From contig JAOAQY010000096.1 of NCBI GenBank assembly GCA_025210965.1, positions 1 to 41,888 on the forward strand: a stretch of 41,888 nucleotides of DNA. Direction: 5' to 3'. The notes under the pieces were generated by a model. That model was not told where the DNA came from. It saw only the letters and a list, made by a program, of their open reading frames with translations, and searched no databases. The position numbers and the translations under genes were made by a program. Source of the DNA: Tissierellales bacterium. GTDB lineage: Bacteria > Bacillota > Clostridia > Tissierellales > JAOAQY01. Within the stretch, counting starts at the first letter, position 1; every line of letters starts with the position of its first letter. Below, piece after piece: positions 13,508 to 28,405 of this stretch.

Positions 13508-13590
13508 AAAATGTTTTTAATAATAAATATTCTCGTCAACAAAATATTTATAATAATAAATATTCTCGGTAGCAAAATATTTCTAATAAT
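13508..13590. repeat. 33-bp tandem repeat, about 2.5 copies
   Basis: Two full 33-base units (13508-13540 and 13541-13573) share TAATAATAAATATTCTCG and differ at a few positions. A third, partial unit starts AAAATATTT at 13574 and runs into the last codons of rsmE. The repeat fills the space between the rsmE stop and the thrS promoter. It is very AT-rich, so slippage is a sufficient explanation. Confidence 0.75.
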
Positions 13591-14299
13591 ATAATCTACC
13601 TATGGCGACTTTTATAGCAGTCTCCACCCTAAGTATTCTATTCCCCAAATTAACGGCCTTAAACCCTATCTTTTCTAGACAATCTATTTCATAATCTGTA
13701 AAACCACCTTCTGGACCTATGGCTATAGTAATTGCTTTTTCTTCAAAATCACTTAAGCTGTTTTTATTATCGATCCTCGGATGAGCTACTATCGCCTCAG
13801 TACCTTCAATGATACTAGGCAATTCATCTTCTACAAATGGTTTGAAATACTTGTGAATACTTACTTTAGGCAGTATAGTATCACAACCCTGTTCTAACCC
13901 TAATAACATCTGTTCCTTAAGTTTTTCATCACTTAGCCAAGGTGTAGACCAATAGCTTTTCTCAACTTTCCAGGTTTTTATCAGATGTATTTCCCCTATT
14001 CCAAGCGTAGTGCAATCTTCTATAAGCCTTTTCATTGCTTTAGGTCTAGGCATAGCTAGTATAAGTTTTATTGGCAATTTATTCGGCGGTTCTCGGTTCA
14101 ACTCGACCTCTATATCGGCAGACTCTTCATCCATTCTAACGAGTATTCCCTCTCCTATTTTCCCATTTAGTTCGCCTACTCTGATAGAATCTCCTAATTC
14201 CACCTTGTGCACTTCTAACATATGCTTATATTGTCTACCCTCTACTCTAATCGTTGTATCATTTATCCAATTTTTTTTATCTATAACTAATAAGTTCAT
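13583..14299 (-). CDS. rsmE: 16S rRNA m3U1498 methyltransferase
   Basis: RsmE is a SAM-dependent SPOUT methyltransferase that makes N3-methyluridine at position 1498 of 16S rRNA, in the decoding region. The 238-residue protein has an N-terminal PUA-like RNA-binding domain (about 1-72) and a trefoil-knot catalytic domain with the family motifs AIGPEGGFTDYEID (about 194-207) and LGNRILRVETA (about 218-228). The ATG at 14299 is one base beyond the TGA stop of the DUF6873 gene, so translation is probably coupled. PrmA, often the upstream neighbour in Firmicutes, is absent and a DUF6873 gene takes its place. Confidence 0.95.
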   Translation of the reverse strand: MNLLVIDKKNWINDTTIRVEGRQYKHMLEVHKVELGDSIRVGELNGKIGEGILVRMDEESADIEVELNREPPNKLPIKLILAMPRPKAMKRLIEDCTTLGIGEIHLIKTWKVEKSYWSTPWLSDEKLKEQMLLGLEQGCDTILPKVSIHKYFKPFVEDELPSIIEGTEAIVAHPRIDNKNSLSDFEEKAITIAIGPEGGFTDYEIDCLEKIGFKAVNLGNRILRVETAIKVAIGRLYY

Positions 14300-22848: not shown

Positions 22849-25503
22849 TTATGCCATTTTGGCTTTAATTTGTTCTAATCTCTCTACTACTTTATCCATC
22901 ATCTCAGCATAGTTGCGCTCTTTTTCTTTTTCTGCTTCTACAACTGCTTCTGGAGCTTTTCCAACAAAACCTTGGTTAGAAAGTTTTCCTCTAACTCTTT
23001 TAAGCTCGCCGTCTAATTTTTTCTTCTCTTTTTCAAGTCTATCTAACTCTTTTTCAAAGTCAACTAACTCATCAAGTGGCAAGAAAATTTCAACTCCAGT
23101 TACTACTGCTGACATAGCATCTTCCGGAATATCAGTTTTATCAGATTTGACTTCAACTTCTGAAGCTGATGCTAGTGTAACAAAAAATCCTGCATTTGTC
23201 TCTAAATAATTTCTTACAGATTCTTCTTCACTAACTAATATAACTTTAGCTTTTTTAGATGGAATTACGTTCATTTCAGCTCTTATATTTCTTATACTCT
23301 TTATAGCTTCCATTATAACTTCCATGTGTTGCTCTACTTCTTGATTATCCCATGACTCTTTAAATTCTGGCCAATTTGAAACAATTAAGCTTGTTTCTAC
23401 ATCTGGCATATGTTGCCAAATTTCTTCTGTGATATATGGCATAAGTGGATGTAACAATGACAATATATCCTTAAGAACTGTAACCAATGTCCATGTAGCT
23501 GTCGCTTTAGCATCTTTGTCATCACCATATAGACGAGGTTTAACCATCTCGATGTACCAGTCACAGTATTCATTCCAAGCAAAGTCGTAGATTCTTTGAG
23601 CTGCTAAACCAATCTCAAATTTATCTAAATTCTCAGTAACAGCTTTCGTAACTGTATTGATTCTAGAAAGTATCCACTTGTCTTCTAGTTGGAAATTAGC
23701 TCTAGCTTGCTCTTCTGAAATTAAATCTCCATCCAAATTCATGAGTACAAATCTAGATGCATTCCAAAGTTTGTTAGCAAAGTTTCTATTAGCCTCTACT
23801 CTTTCTTCATAGAATCTCATATCATTTCCTGGTGAATTACCTGTTACAAGTGTAAATCTAAGCGCATCAGCACCGTATTTTTCGATTACGTCAAGTGGAT
23901 CTATACCGTTTCCTAACGATTTACTCATCTTTCTTCCTTCCGAGTCTCTTACAAGACCTGTAAAGAATACATGCTCAAATGGAATTTGATCCATCTGCTC
24001 TAATGCAGAAAATACCATTCTAACTACCCAGAAGAATACAATATCATATCCTGTAACTAAAACGTTTGTAGGATAGAAGTAATCAAGTTCTGGTGTTTCA
24101 TTTGGCCAACCCAATGTTGAAAATGGCCAAAGTGCAGATGAGAACCAAGTGTCTAATGTATCTGGATCTTGTCTTAAGTTTGTACTATTACACTTCGTAC
24201 ACGTTTCTGGCTTAGTTCTATTGATTATAACTTCACCACAATCATCACAATAGTAAACAGGAAGTCTATGACCCCACCATAATTGACGAGATATACACCA
24301 ATCTCTGATATTTTCAAGCCAGTTCAAGTAAACTTTTCCCAATCTCTCTGGAACAAATTTTAATTCACCACTCTTGTATGCTTCGATAGCTGGTTTTGCT
24401 AATGGCTCCATTTTAACAAACCATTGCTTTGAAATAATAGGCTCAACTGTAGTTTTACATCTTTCACAATGTCCTACATTATGTGAGTGATCTTCAATTT
24501 CTATCAACAATCCCTCTGCTTCTAAATCAGCAACCATTGCTTTTCTAGCTTCGTATCTATCCATGCCTTCATATTTGCCACCATGCTCATTGATAGTAGC
24601 ATCGTCATTCATAACTTTTATTCTCTCTAAGTCATGACGATTTCCTACTTCGAAGTCATTAGGGTCATGTGCTGGTGTTATCTTAACACAACCTGTACCG
24701 AACTCTTTATCAACATAAGTGTCTGCTACTACAGGTATTTCTCTTCCAACTAGTGGTAATATAAGTTTTTTACCTACTAAATCTGTATATCTTTCATCAT
24801 CAGGGTGAACAGCTACTGCCGTATCTCCAAGCAATGTCTCTGGACGAGTAGTAGCTATAACTACATAGCCATCTCCATCTTTGTATGGATATTTTATATG
24901 CCAGAAATGTCCTGCTTCTTCTCTATGGTCAACCTCTGCATCAGAAATAGCAGTTTTACAATTAGGACACCAGTTAACGATTCTGTCTCCTCTGTAGATT
25001 AGCCCTTTATCATTCAATCTGATAAATACCTCTTCTACAGCTTCGCTCAATCCTTCATCTAATGTAAATCTGTCCTTAGACCAGTCACAAGAAACACCAA
25101 GTGTTCTCAATTGCTTTCTAATGTTTCCACCGTATTTTTCTGTCCAATCCCAAGCTTCTTCTAAGAAACCATCTCTGCCAAGCATTTCTTTCGATTTGCC
25201 TTCGCTCTTAATTTTTTCAACAACTTTTGCCTCTGTAGAAATACTTGCATGATCAGTTCCAGGTAACCAAAGTGCTTCATATCCTTGCATTCTCTTCCAT
25301 CTAATCAAAGCATCTTGAATAGTGTTGTTTATAGCATGTCCCATGTGAAGCTTTCCCGTTACATTTGGTGGCGGCATCATTATTGTGTAAGGTTCTTTTT
25401 CCTTATTTACGTCTGCCTTAAAATATCCACTTTCTTCCCAAAATTTGTATAGTCTGTCCTCAAAATCTTTCGGATCATATGTTTTCGAAAGTTCTTTTGC
25501 CAT
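22849..25503 (-). CDS. valS: Valine--tRNA ligase
   Basis: This class Ia synthetase charges tRNA-Val and edits Thr-tRNA-Val. The 884 residues carry the HIGH-equivalent HMGH at about 53-56 ([10 protein letters not shown]), a CP1 editing domain at about 190-340 ([18 protein letters not shown]), a zinc-binding CxxC pair near 415-440 ([14 protein letters not shown]), KMSKS in [11 protein letters not shown] near 525, and an anticodon-binding domain. The last 70 or so residues form the coiled-coil arm specific to ValRS. AAGGAGGTAGTACA precedes the ATG. It follows a 55-aa membrane protein gene, both under the valine T-box. Confidence 0.98.
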
Positions 25504-25523
25504 TGTACTACCTCCTTAAAATA

Positions 25524-25691
25524 TTAACCTTTTACTACAGCTAAATACACTCCAATCATTACGCTTACAAGACCTATACTTTTTATACGTATTCTCAAAT
25601 TCATATCCATATCTTTCTTGCTTGCATAATAATCTGAACCAAAGACTACCAAAAAGCCTACTAAAGCTAAGAGTACTCCTAAAGTTTTCAA
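25524..25691 (-). CDS. Small two-helix membrane protein (55 aa) in the valS operon
   Basis: Not a family I can name. From the TTG at 25691, nine bases after AAGGG, the protein is MKTLGVLLALVGFLVVFGSD, a charged loop with KKDMDMNLRIRIK, and a second helix SIGLVSVMIGVYLAVV, so it is a two-helix hairpin. A GTG at 25709 is the alternative start (61 aa) but has a weaker ribosome binding site. It lies between the valine T-box terminator and valS, 20 bases before the valS start, so it is transcribed only when the T-box permits. It is the only non-synthetase product directly behind a T-box here. Confidence 0.7.
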   Translation of the reverse strand: MKTLGVLLALVGFLVVFGSDYYASKKDMDMNLRIRIKSIGLVSVMIGVYLAVVKG

Positions 25692-25733
25692 AGTGTCACA
25701 TCCCTTCACTCTCTATTTGAAAGTTTTGAGCAA

Positions 25734-26008
25734 TAAAAAAAGCTTTCATCCTAACAAAAGGACGAAAGCTTTATTCCGCGGTACCACCTTTATTTCAAGC
25801 ATACGCTTGACACTCAAAATCTTAACGAGTTGCCCCGTTCAAACCTACTGCTATTTCAGTTTGAAAGCTCCAAAGCTACCTTCAACAAACATTGCCTCTA
25901 AGAATCTCTCAGCCGGTGGATTCTATTCTCTGTATTGGATATTTATTTACTCCTCTTTTTCTCAGCCTTTAATCAAGTAGGTATAGCCTACTTTCAATCA
26001 TTCAATTA
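25734..26008 (-). promoter_or_regulatory. T-box leader of valS (valine)
   Basis: The core AAGGTGGTACCGCGG is at 25776-25790. Its terminator is AAAGCTTTCGTCC / GGATGAAAGCTTT with a T-run ending near 25734. The likely specifier is GTA at 25877-25879, a valine codon in the same GAAG-NNN context as the Phe leader. The transcript begins about 26008. Confidence 0.92.
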
Positions 26009-26014
26009 TTTATC

Positions 26015-26042
26015 ATTATATCTGAATTTGCAAATTTGTCAA
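26015..26042 (-). promoter_or_regulatory. Promoter of the valS T-box leader
   Basis: TTGACA (26037-26042) and TATAAT (26015-26020) with 16-base spacing. Confidence 0.88.
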
Positions 26043-26142
26043 TAGTATTTTTCAAATCAATATATTTGCATATTTTATTGTGTGACGTTAATATAATTGT
26101 TAACGAAAGCTATTAACTAATCTACAAGTGAATTACCTGCCC

Positions 26143-26298
26143 AGTTACTAACCATCAACTACTAACTAATAACTGCTAAATGCTAATTATTAGATACTAA
26201 ATACTAATTACTAATTGCTAAGCATCAACTACTAACTGCTAGCTATCAAATGCTAAATATCAACTGCTAACTATCAAATGCTAAATATCAACTGCTAA
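26143..26298. repeat. Degenerate heptad repeat array
   Basis: About 21 consecutive 7-base units on the minus strand of the form TTAGCAG, TTGATAT, TTAGTAG or TTAGCAT. The end nearest trpS holds two exact 28-base copies (four heptads each) at 26243-26270 and 26271-26298. The array begins directly after the trpS stop and ends before the valS promoter. The rest of the gap, 26043-26142, shows no feature I recognise. Confidence 0.9.
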
Positions 26299-27297
26299 CT
26301 AAAATTTTCTAGGAACAAGACCCACTTTTTTATAAACTTTACTTAGTGTTTTATACGCTATTTTCGATGCTTTTGCCGCACCGTCTGCATATACTTCTTC
26401 CAAATACGCTTTGTCATCCATTAATTCTTTGAATTTAGTCTGTATCGGATGCAAATGAGCTACTATTGCCTCTGCTAGATCTGCTTTAAAATCACCATAA
26501 CCCTTTCCTTCATAGCGCTTCACTATATCTTCTATTTTTTCTCCAGTCATAACAGAGAATATTGTCAAAAGATTCTTTATAGCCAATTGGTCATCATTAT
26601 AAGCCACTATTCCTACAGAATCGGTAACTGCTCTTTTTACCTTTCTTCTTATAGTAGCCGCATCGTCTTTTAACAATATATAACCATTTTCATTATCTGA
26701 TGATTTACTCATTTTTTTAGTTGGATCTTGAAGACTCATTATACGAGCACCTTGCTTTGGAATAAATGGCTCTGGCATTTTAAATGTATCACTGTATCTG
26801 TGATTAAAACGCTGTGCCAATGTTCTAGTGAGCTCAACATGTTGCTTTTGGTCTTCTCCTACAGGTACTTCATCTGCTTGATAAAGTAATATATCTCCAG
26901 CCATAAGCACTGGATATGTGTAAAGACCTGCATTTAAGCCGGCTTCTCCTTTTTTTGCCTTATCTTTAAATTGTGTCATACGATTTAGCTCTCCCATTTG
27001 AGCCATAGTATCTAATATCCACGCAACTTCAGCATGCGCACTTATGTGAGATTGGATAAATATAGTAACTTTCTCTGGATCTAAGCCACAAGCCATATAT
27101 AAAGCCAATATTTCCAATGTGTTTCTTCTCAAATCTTTTGGTATCTGTTGTACTGTTATAGCATGTAAGTCTGCTATAAAATAAAAGCAATCATATGTAT
27201 CTTGAAAATCAACCCAATTTCTTATAGCTCCAACATAATTTCCAAGTGTCAATTCTCCTGATGGCTTGATGCCACTAACTATTCTTGATTTTTCCAT
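26299..27297 (-). CDS. trpS: Tryptophan--tRNA ligase
   Basis: This class Ic synthetase charges tRNA-Trp. The 332-aa sequence has the HIGH-equivalent TLGN at 17-20 (KPSGELTLGNYVGA), DLHAITV near 43-49, GEDQKQHVELTR near 145-156 and KMSKS in KKMSKSSDN near 195. The length matches bacterial TrpRS. AAAAAGGAGAGAAGAAA precedes the ATG. It is the only gene behind the Trp T-box, and its stop codon abuts the heptad repeat array; I see no conventional terminator there. Confidence 0.97.
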   Translation of the reverse strand: MEKSRIVSGIKPSGELTLGNYVGAIRNWVDFQDTYDCFYFIADLHAITVQQIPKDLRRNTLEILALYMACGLDPEKVTIFIQSHISAHAEVAWILDTMAQMGELNRMTQFKDKAKKGEAGLNAGLYTYPVLMAGDILLYQADEVPVGEDQKQHVELTRTLAQRFNHRYSDTFKMPEPFIPKQGARIMSLQDPTKKMSKSSDNENGYILLKDDAATIRRKVKRAVTDSVGIVAYNDDQLAIKNLLTIFSVMTGEKIEDIVKRYEGKGYGDFKADLAEAIVAHLHPIQTKFKELMDDKAYLEEVYADGAAKASKIAYKTLSKVYKKVGLVPRKF

Positions 27298-27334
27298 TTT
27301 CTTCTCTCCTTTTTATTGTCTAAAGCAATAAATA

Positions 27335-27594
27335 TAAAAAGCCCTCTATGCATAAAGCATAGAGGGCGACTAATCGCGGTACCACCTCTAAATGAACTCC
27401 TAAGAATTCCTCTTTCAACAACAGGCAAATGCCGATCATCTAGCTCTATAACGGGAGCAACCGTATCCCCTACTAAAATTTCAGTTCTCACTCATGAGTC
27501 CATTCCCTCGAAACTACACGACCAAATTTCCAGCACCATTGGCTCTCTATACGCTCATTTCAAGCTACTAATCTCATTCATTGCTTTAATATTT
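27335..27594 (-). promoter_or_regulatory. T-box leader of trpS (tryptophan)
   Basis: The core AGAGGTGGTACCGCG is at 27375-27389, followed by a perfect terminator GCCCTCTATG / CATAGAGGGC (27341-27367) and TTTTTATA. The specifier TGG at 27500-27502 is in the context GAA-TGG-A. This is the clearest of the four leaders. Confidence 0.93.
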
Positions 27595-27600
27595 TCTTTA

Positions 27601-27628
27601 ATTATACCACATAAAAACCCTCAGTCAA
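27601..27628 (-). promoter_or_regulatory. Promoter of the trpS T-box leader
   Basis: TTGACT (27623-27628) and TATAAT (27601-27606) with 16-base spacing, starting four bases after the AIM24 gene stop. Confidence 0.85.
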
Positions 27629-27631
27629 GTA

Positions 27632-28405
27632 CTAATCGTCGGACAACAGTCCACCTAGAATACCACCTGCAATCCCTGAAACTGTAGAGTTCCCTGTATT
27701 TGATTGTCCTTGATTGCTACCCATAGCAGCATACATTCTTTCTGCCATCTTAGAAAGCGGCATACTTTGAAGATAAACTTTACCCGGACCTGTCAATGTT
27801 GCAAGAAATAATCCCTCTTTACCAAAAAGTGCATTTTTAAATCCTCCAACAAATTCAACATCATAATTTACAGAAGATTCAAATCCAACAAGACAGCCAG
27901 TATCTATTCTAAGTCTCTCTCCATGTGCTAAATTTTTCTCTATCATAGTACCACCAGCGTGAATAAATGCCAATCCATCGCCAGTTAATTTTTGCAATAT
28001 GAATCCTTCGCCGCCAAAGAATCCTGCACCAAGTTTCTTGGTAATTGCAACCTCTATTTCGACACCATTAGCTGCACACAAAAATGAATCCTTCTGACAT
28101 AAAAACTCCCCACCAAATCTAGCTAAATCAAGCGGAATAATCTTCCCTGGATAGGGGGCTGCAAATCCAACATGGCTTTTTCCCTGGCCTTCATGTAAAA
28201 ATGTAGTTATAAAAAAGCTTTCACCAGTAAACATTCTTTTAAATCCTGAAAATAATCCACCACCAGTAGTTGTCTGCATTTTGATTCCATCTTCCATATA
28301 GGTCATGGCACCAGCTTCTGCTCTAACGCCCTCTTTAGGATCTAATTCAATCTCTACTAATTGCATATCATCTCCATAAATTTTGTAATCAATAACATCT
28401 GCCAT
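27632..28405 (-). CDS. AIM24 / TIGR00266 family protein
   Basis: A 257-aa protein of the AIM24 family, named for a yeast mitochondrial biogenesis protein; bacterial members have no settled function. It consists of repeated beta strands with many glycines, for example TTTGGGLFSGFKRMFTGESFF near 45-65 and KLGAGFFGGEGFILQKL near 123-139, followed by HAGGTMIEK near 149. The last 35 residues are low complexity with a glycine-rich GIAGGILGGLLSDD tail. It follows a DegV protein by 23 bases and is probably cotranscribed. AIM24 proteins often sit near stress or envelope genes, but nothing here fixes its role. Confidence 0.88.
   Translation of the reverse strand: MADVIDYKIYGDDMQLVEIELDPKEGVRAEAGAMTYMEDGIKMQTTTGGGLFSGFKRMFTGESFFITTFLHEGQGKSHVGFAAPYPGKIIPLDLARFGGEFLCQKDSFLCAANGVEIEVAITKKLGAGFFGGEGFILQKLTGDGLAFIHAGGTMIEKNLAHGERLRIDTGCLVGFESSVNYDVEFVGGFKNALFGKEGLFLATLTGPGKVYLQSMPLSKMAERMYAAMGSNQGQSNTGNSTVSGIAGGILGGLLSDD

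Follow-up and report, generated by a model that had tools for sequence, protein, structure and literature searches.

Bacterial repeats in tandem arrays of seven-base units have been described before but are poorly explained; the cyanobacterial STRRs, which are degenerate heptads, belong to them. According to the available parts of two papers that cite a 2007 survey, many bacterial genomes have heptanucleotides as the most abundant, or an over-represented, class of their long simple repeats, and polymerase slippage has been proposed (PMC4679880, PMC4692102); for why the unit has seven bases, those parts offer only a hypothesis. The heptads of Xanthomonas and Nostoc are rarer between divergent ORFs and differ in length between species (PMC4692102), and the TAACTGA repeats of Beggiatoaceae, Cyanobacteria and Bacteroidetes are sometimes mixed with related heptamers, and two Cyanothece strains differ in repeat length mostly in steps of 7 nt (PMC4679880). 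No passage on heptanucleotides and Clostridia was found in the available part of a survey of prokaryotic DNA-structure features (PMC4060949).

The array described here is one more, AT-rich example. It lies between trpS and valS in a stretch of 41,888 nucleotides from a Tissierellales bacterium (contig JAOAQY010000096.1, the window; its genome is G000 below).

A heptad array directly behind trpS

On the minus strand of the trpS-valS gap, 22 heptads follow each other without gaps and in register (Table 1), the first of them beginning at the base directly after the trpS stop codon TAG (26301-26299). An earlier note, made from the sequence, had placed about 21 such units at 26143-26298 and described them as variants of TTAGYAN/TTGATAN on the minus strand; its count was accurate to within one unit, and the units agreed with its description. 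They share the consensus TTRRYAN, with positions 1, 2 and 6 nearly fixed (T20 C2, T22, and A20 G2), positions 3-5 varying almost only by transitions (A16 G6, G14 A7 T1, and T14 C8) and position 7 free (G10 T7 A4 C1). Compared with TTAGTA, positions 1-6 contain 25 transitions and 1 transversion, in units that are mutual copies and not independent.

Head-to-tail units of seven bases are present well beyond chance, as expected for heptanucleotide simple-sequence arrays of the LSSR/STRR kind. Self-identity of the array is 0.591 at lag 7, 0.704 at lag 14 and 0.680 at lag 28, with shuffle means of about 0.31 (z = 7.2, 9.6 and 8.4); all three values lie above all 2000 dinucleotide shuffles (maxima 0.43-0.47), while identity at lags 2, 5, 9 and 12 falls below the shuffles (z -4.0 to -5.7). 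The site, from the trpS stop codon to the valS promoter-like site, is intergenic, as is also typical for this kind. Units 1-4 and 5-8 are the two exact 28-base copies that the earlier note had seen beside trpS (lag-4 distances 0, 0, 0, 0), and TRF reported rows with periods 7, 14, 28 and 35 for the array, that of period 28 with 97 percent matches. The trpS-proximal part is also more uniform, suggesting recent growth there, as had been supposed. In a lag scan of the whole window, the trpS array was the single period-7 segment at the threshold used. Another tandem repeat, AT-rich and with a 33-base unit (2.5 copies, 88 percent matches), was seen at 13508-13591, at the edge of ORF 13583-14299.

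Both neighbouring genes are on the minus strand and each has its own T-box leader (27359-27590 for trpS, 25755-25972 for valS); the valS product carries the domains PF00133 and Val_tRNA-synt_C. The valS promoter-like site, about 100 bases beyond the array, is a perfect sigma-70-type match and the only perfect one in a scan that returned about as many sites as shuffled sequence. The TrpS C-terminus (VGLVPRKF) is at the usual place in comparison with 15 of 80 fetched homologues, so the array seems neither to have truncated nor lengthened the enzyme, and a truncated or extended TrpS was rejected on this basis. The best TrpS relatives from named genomes, among the matches listed, are a Peptoniphilus protein at 62 percent and then many Oscillospiraceae, in a collection that may leave out this genome or very near ones. 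With relatives only 62 percent identical among those matches, trpS may have been acquired from elsewhere. Both the T-boxes and these TrpS relatives fit Bacillota.

Table 1. Features around the heptad array in the window, and related arrays on other contigs of the same genome
Feature	Position	Strand	Basis
trpS, tryptophanyl-tRNA synthetase, 332 aa	26299..27297	-	PF00579, E 2.5e-76
Heptad array, 22 units TTRRYAN	26145..26298	-	in-register unit count, lag scan, TRF
28-base copy 1 (units 1-4)	26271..26298	-	unit comparison, TRF
28-base copy 2 (units 5-8), identical to copy 1	26243..26270	-	unit comparison
Two more in-register heptad-like units (26-27), past a 21-base divergent stretch	26110..26123	-	in-register unit count
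Possible imperfect RNA hairpin at distal array end, many G-U pairs, no T-run after it	26109..26152	-	fold
valS promoter-like site, TTGACA-16-TATAAT	26015..26042	-	12/12 matches
T-box leader of valS	25755..25972	-	RF00230, 129.7 bits
Three-unit array	C13:2914-2933		
Three-unit array between genes read by eye as ftsA and ftsZ	C116:3406-3425		
Three-unit array behind terminator-like hairpin of gene read by eye as glutamate dehydrogenase	C7:7603-7629		
Related array, 15-base period (7+8), starting at stop codon	C2:22716-22758		

Related arrays in the same genome

Three consecutive units gave 12 matches in G000, at four places including the window, and the reversed pattern gave none. The earlier note had proposed such a search and said that one fixed copy number across strains, with no other occurrences, would speak for simple decay; other occurrences do exist, as three-unit runs stand at three other places and a related array was found on C2. 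Dispersed related arrays, typical of the LSSR/STRR kind, are therefore present in this genome, but they are few. Matches of two units (109 versus 86 in the control) are mostly chance, and none of the 10 that were fetched proved to be part of a longer array. Outside the five arrays, 400 kb of sampled genome contained no period-7 segment at the threshold used. This genome was also the only one that the family search returned, and no second strain was found.

In each of the five inspected arrays, TTAG stands on the sense strand of the gene whose stop codon comes before the array. As it rests on five cases, this common orientation is only suggestive. Inspection showed no flanking core common to the five.

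Origin of the array

We consider it probable that the window array is a degenerate heptanucleotide simple-sequence array that grew by slippage at a tolerant site and has no dedicated function. Starting from the observed units, register, duplication, location and further copies, the following course can be proposed. Strand slippage would have lengthened, in 7-base steps, a short seed of TTRRYAN lying after the trpS stop codon, and the most recent growth would be the 28-base tandem duplication at the trpS end. Older units would have drifted, at positions 1-6 almost only by transitions, and the array would persist because its place after a stop codon, with the next promoter about 100 bases away, tolerates it, presumably as neutral sequence. 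Stop codons in all three sense frames would be a side effect.

This account is supported by the period and register of the units, the exact 28-base copies beside trpS and the greater variety of the units farther out, the excess of transitions, TTRRYAN units at other intergenic places in G000 without a visible common flank, array folds that are no better than shuffles, the lack of a terminator in the gap, the ordinary end of TrpS, and the slippage proposed in the literature. Against it stand the set polarity of heptads around the hairpin cores of two relatives (G003 and G161, see below), the single gene-relative orientation of the five G000 arrays, and the finding that viral contigs have no special period-7 excess of the array unit.

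The distribution of heptads was surveyed in several sequence sets. At least four TTRRYAN units in a row were found in 17 of 249 genomes of the order. The reversed control matched as often or more in several of them (including G161, G168, G169, G215, G223-G225 and G245), so that arrays specific to TTRRYAN are fewer; G003 had 17 four-unit matches (control 0) and G161 had 38 (control 66). Samples of 200 kb from G003 and G161, taken not at random but as stretches on contigs known to hold arrays, contained 25 and 24 segments of period 7, respectively, with 1 and 1 of period 8, 0 and 1 of periods 4-6, and 0 and 4 of period 9. Among 80 trpS loci from named genomes, fetched regardless of heptads (660 kb, many from Oscillospiraceae), period 7 occurred at 5 loci, and of these 5 segments 3 were noncoding-like. 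By comparison, period 9 was found 3 times, other periods up to 2 times each, and a Markov control gave none. In G223-G225, TTGACAA heptads run into a GGGTCTAGCTTTGGGGTC-like stretch that recurs, and two further loci look similar; this may be a third composite repeat besides the two described below.

An origin from a virus or plasmid was rejected. BLAST of the array against plasmids and phages, with the low-complexity filter on, gave no match, and viral contigs showed no special excess of TTRRYAN or of period 7 (70 stretches of six units at period 7, 52 at period 6, 30 at period 8, 90 at period 9, and 65 for the reversed pattern).

Heptads beside hairpin cores in two relatives

In G003, a perfect hairpin, GAAATCC-N2-6-GGATTTC, is dispersed in 65 copies (control 0). 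Around 19 sampled cores, 7-spaced pairs of TAG type were found on the left only (75 versus 0, with 3 cores having none there) and those of CTA type on the right only (71 versus 0), so that the flanking heptad arrays are inverted. A different core, ATGGNAG-YTTTAC-N2-6-GTAAAR, is present in 126 copies in G161 (control 0), and single copies occur in each of three other genomes. Among 41 sampled core hairpins of G161, 31 could be oriented (10 were dropped), and lag-7 identity reached at least 0.5 on the 5' side of 27 of the 31 cores and on the 3' side of 9 (p 7.5e-5). Several unrelated heptad sequences (AAAAGTT-, AACGAGT-, TGAGAAT- and TTGATAG-like) share this one core. Heptad polarity around the hairpins is thus strict in G003 and strong in G161. 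It is unexplained by simple slippage, and it is a more interesting lead than the window array.

The window array could then be the solo 5' tail of a composite of this type, the core and inverted arm of which decayed to the weak hairpin at 26152-26109. The polarity in both relatives, in G161 mainly on the 5' side, is compatible with such a tail; moreover, the array ends in TTGATGGTTAG followed by the weak hairpin, and GATGGT directly precedes the hairpin in 7 of 18 G003 cores. However, a single transition separates TTGATGG from TTGATAG, so that the match at the junction may have arisen by chance, and 11 of the 18 cores lack it. The 44-base distal segment folds at -11.6 kcal/mol (RNA z -2.31, 3/200 shuffles as good; DNA z 0.03), which is weak evidence for a segment picked after a fold had been seen. 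A perfect palindrome or hairpin core of 6-7 bp was not found by the window array, only this weak wobble hairpin, nor was the inverted arm typical of G003, as units 26-27 are oriented like the array. Neither G000 nor G003 contains the G161 core, and the five G000 arrays have no visible core in common. We therefore regard the decayed composite as unlikely.

A wider version of the same idea would make the heptad arrays of the order polar tails of small REP-like hairpin repeats, produced by hairpin-dependent, strand-polar copying in 7-base steps, with the window array as an orphan tail. This reading is drawn from the observation that each of the two genomes rich in heptad arrays, G003 and G161, has its own hairpin, that the heptad sequences of G161 vary on one hairpin, and that period, side and polarity are kept; we give it a small chance of being correct.

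REP/BIME-type extragenic palindromes go with RAYT transposases. Matches to Y1-type transposases exist in G000, G003 and G161; those of G000 at C101 and C30 have internal stop codons, the one at C139 is a single open frame of 299 residues, and G003 has an intact frame at C29. Mobilisation by a RAYT was rejected, as no REP/RAYT pairing was found: the three intact Y1 genes read by eye (one in G000 and two in G161, about 1.8 kb each) had no heptads or cores beside them.

A possible role at the 3' end of trpS

An element in the 3'-UTR that would terminate, protect or insulate the trpS transcript, or would stop translation in every frame, is less probable still. The array begins at the stop codon and, as the earlier note had pointed out, has stop codons in all frames (7, 13 and 9 in the sense frames, 4, 8 and 5 in the antisense frames). 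The note's further statement that trpS has no ordinary terminator also held: a scan of 25500-27700 returned two sites, both outside the stretch from the trpS stop codon to the valS T-box, and an intrinsic terminator, with GC in its stem and a T-run after it, was not found between 26301 and 25980. The placement of the G003 cores is in keeping with such an element as well. With an ORF on both sides (18 cores, one dropped), 14 were co-directional, 4 convergent and none divergent, and none lay inside an ORF of 100 or more codons, under a simple ORF rule by which at least one copy (C1:60958) is classed otherwise than by another rule.

Against this role, the array has no T-run and folds no better than shuffles as RNA (z -1.25, 18/200 shuffles as good), so that an RNA structure of the array was rejected and a functional reading was left without positive support; neither the array as DNA (z -0.38) nor the other strand as RNA (z 0.36) was better than shuffles. 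Some G003 copies end in CTAACTTTTTT, which suggested that heptads might serve as terminator stems; as a general feature this was likewise rejected, as only 2 of 18 G003 cores passed a strict T-run test. For a translation stop, TrpS has its own stop codon. In a first count, 10 of 13 co-directional G003 cores were behind an ORF ending in TAG, which looked like an enrichment. It was not significant in a wider ORF set (5/12 heptad-adjacent versus 44/150 other ORFs, p 0.51) or in a recount on the sampled cores (8/18 versus 41/146, p 0.18), and G161 gave 1/15 versus 28/138. The idea that the arrays supply the stop codon of a gene is thus not supported, although it may hold for G003.

Serial binding sites for a protein that recognises DNA or RNA, an idea put forward for the TAACTGA repeats of Beggiatoaceae, would fit the regular 7-base spacing and the several constrained positions, but this reading is very improbable, as a 7-base step sets neighbouring units on different helix faces, the array is located after a stop codon and about 100 bases upstream of the valS -35 rather than near a start codon, and the genome has few arrays.

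Comparison with described repeats

The relatives G003 and G161 matter more than the window array alone, which probably grew by slippage, since heptads tied to hairpins in a fixed polarity offer a way to test how the 7-base step arises. The G003 and G161 cores resemble REP/BIME elements in being short dispersed hairpins (intergenic in G003), whereas the window array has no core. Among the open-licence papers listed in the literature searches, none was, judging by title and start of abstract, about heptads joined to hairpin repeats in bacteria of this sort, and we make no claim of priority.

Among described heptads, those in the P6b stem of the Nostoc trnL intron (TDNGATT / NNTGAGT) are degenerate, like the window units, and are inserted or lost in steps of 7 or 14 bases; their stem arms are built of heptads, as in G003 (PMC4476775). 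They lie inside a group I intron stem, however, whereas the window array has no complementary arm. The TAACTGA repeats share with the window array an AT-rich heptad with stop codons and an intergenic location, but they consist of one exact heptamer and, in the main genome, mostly stand just upstream of start codons and not behind a stop codon (PMC4679880); TAACTGA occurs on neither strand of the window array, which thus does not belong to the Beggiatoaceae type.

The heptads of Xanthomonas, GGGAATC or (GGGANTN)n, and of Nostoc, GGGGA(T/C)T, are degenerate like the window array, with fixed and free positions, according to the available part of PMC4692102. They are G-rich and quadruplex-forming, whereas the window unit is AT-rich and has no G-runs, and 183-186 patterns per Xanthomonas genome compare with only about five arrays found in G000. 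Like the window array and the related arrays in G000, they are dispersed and mostly intergenic, close behind the upstream ORF (on average 28 nt in Xanthomonas), and 70-75 cases in Xanthomonas are convergent inverted pairs (PMC4692102), like the arrays around the G003 cores.
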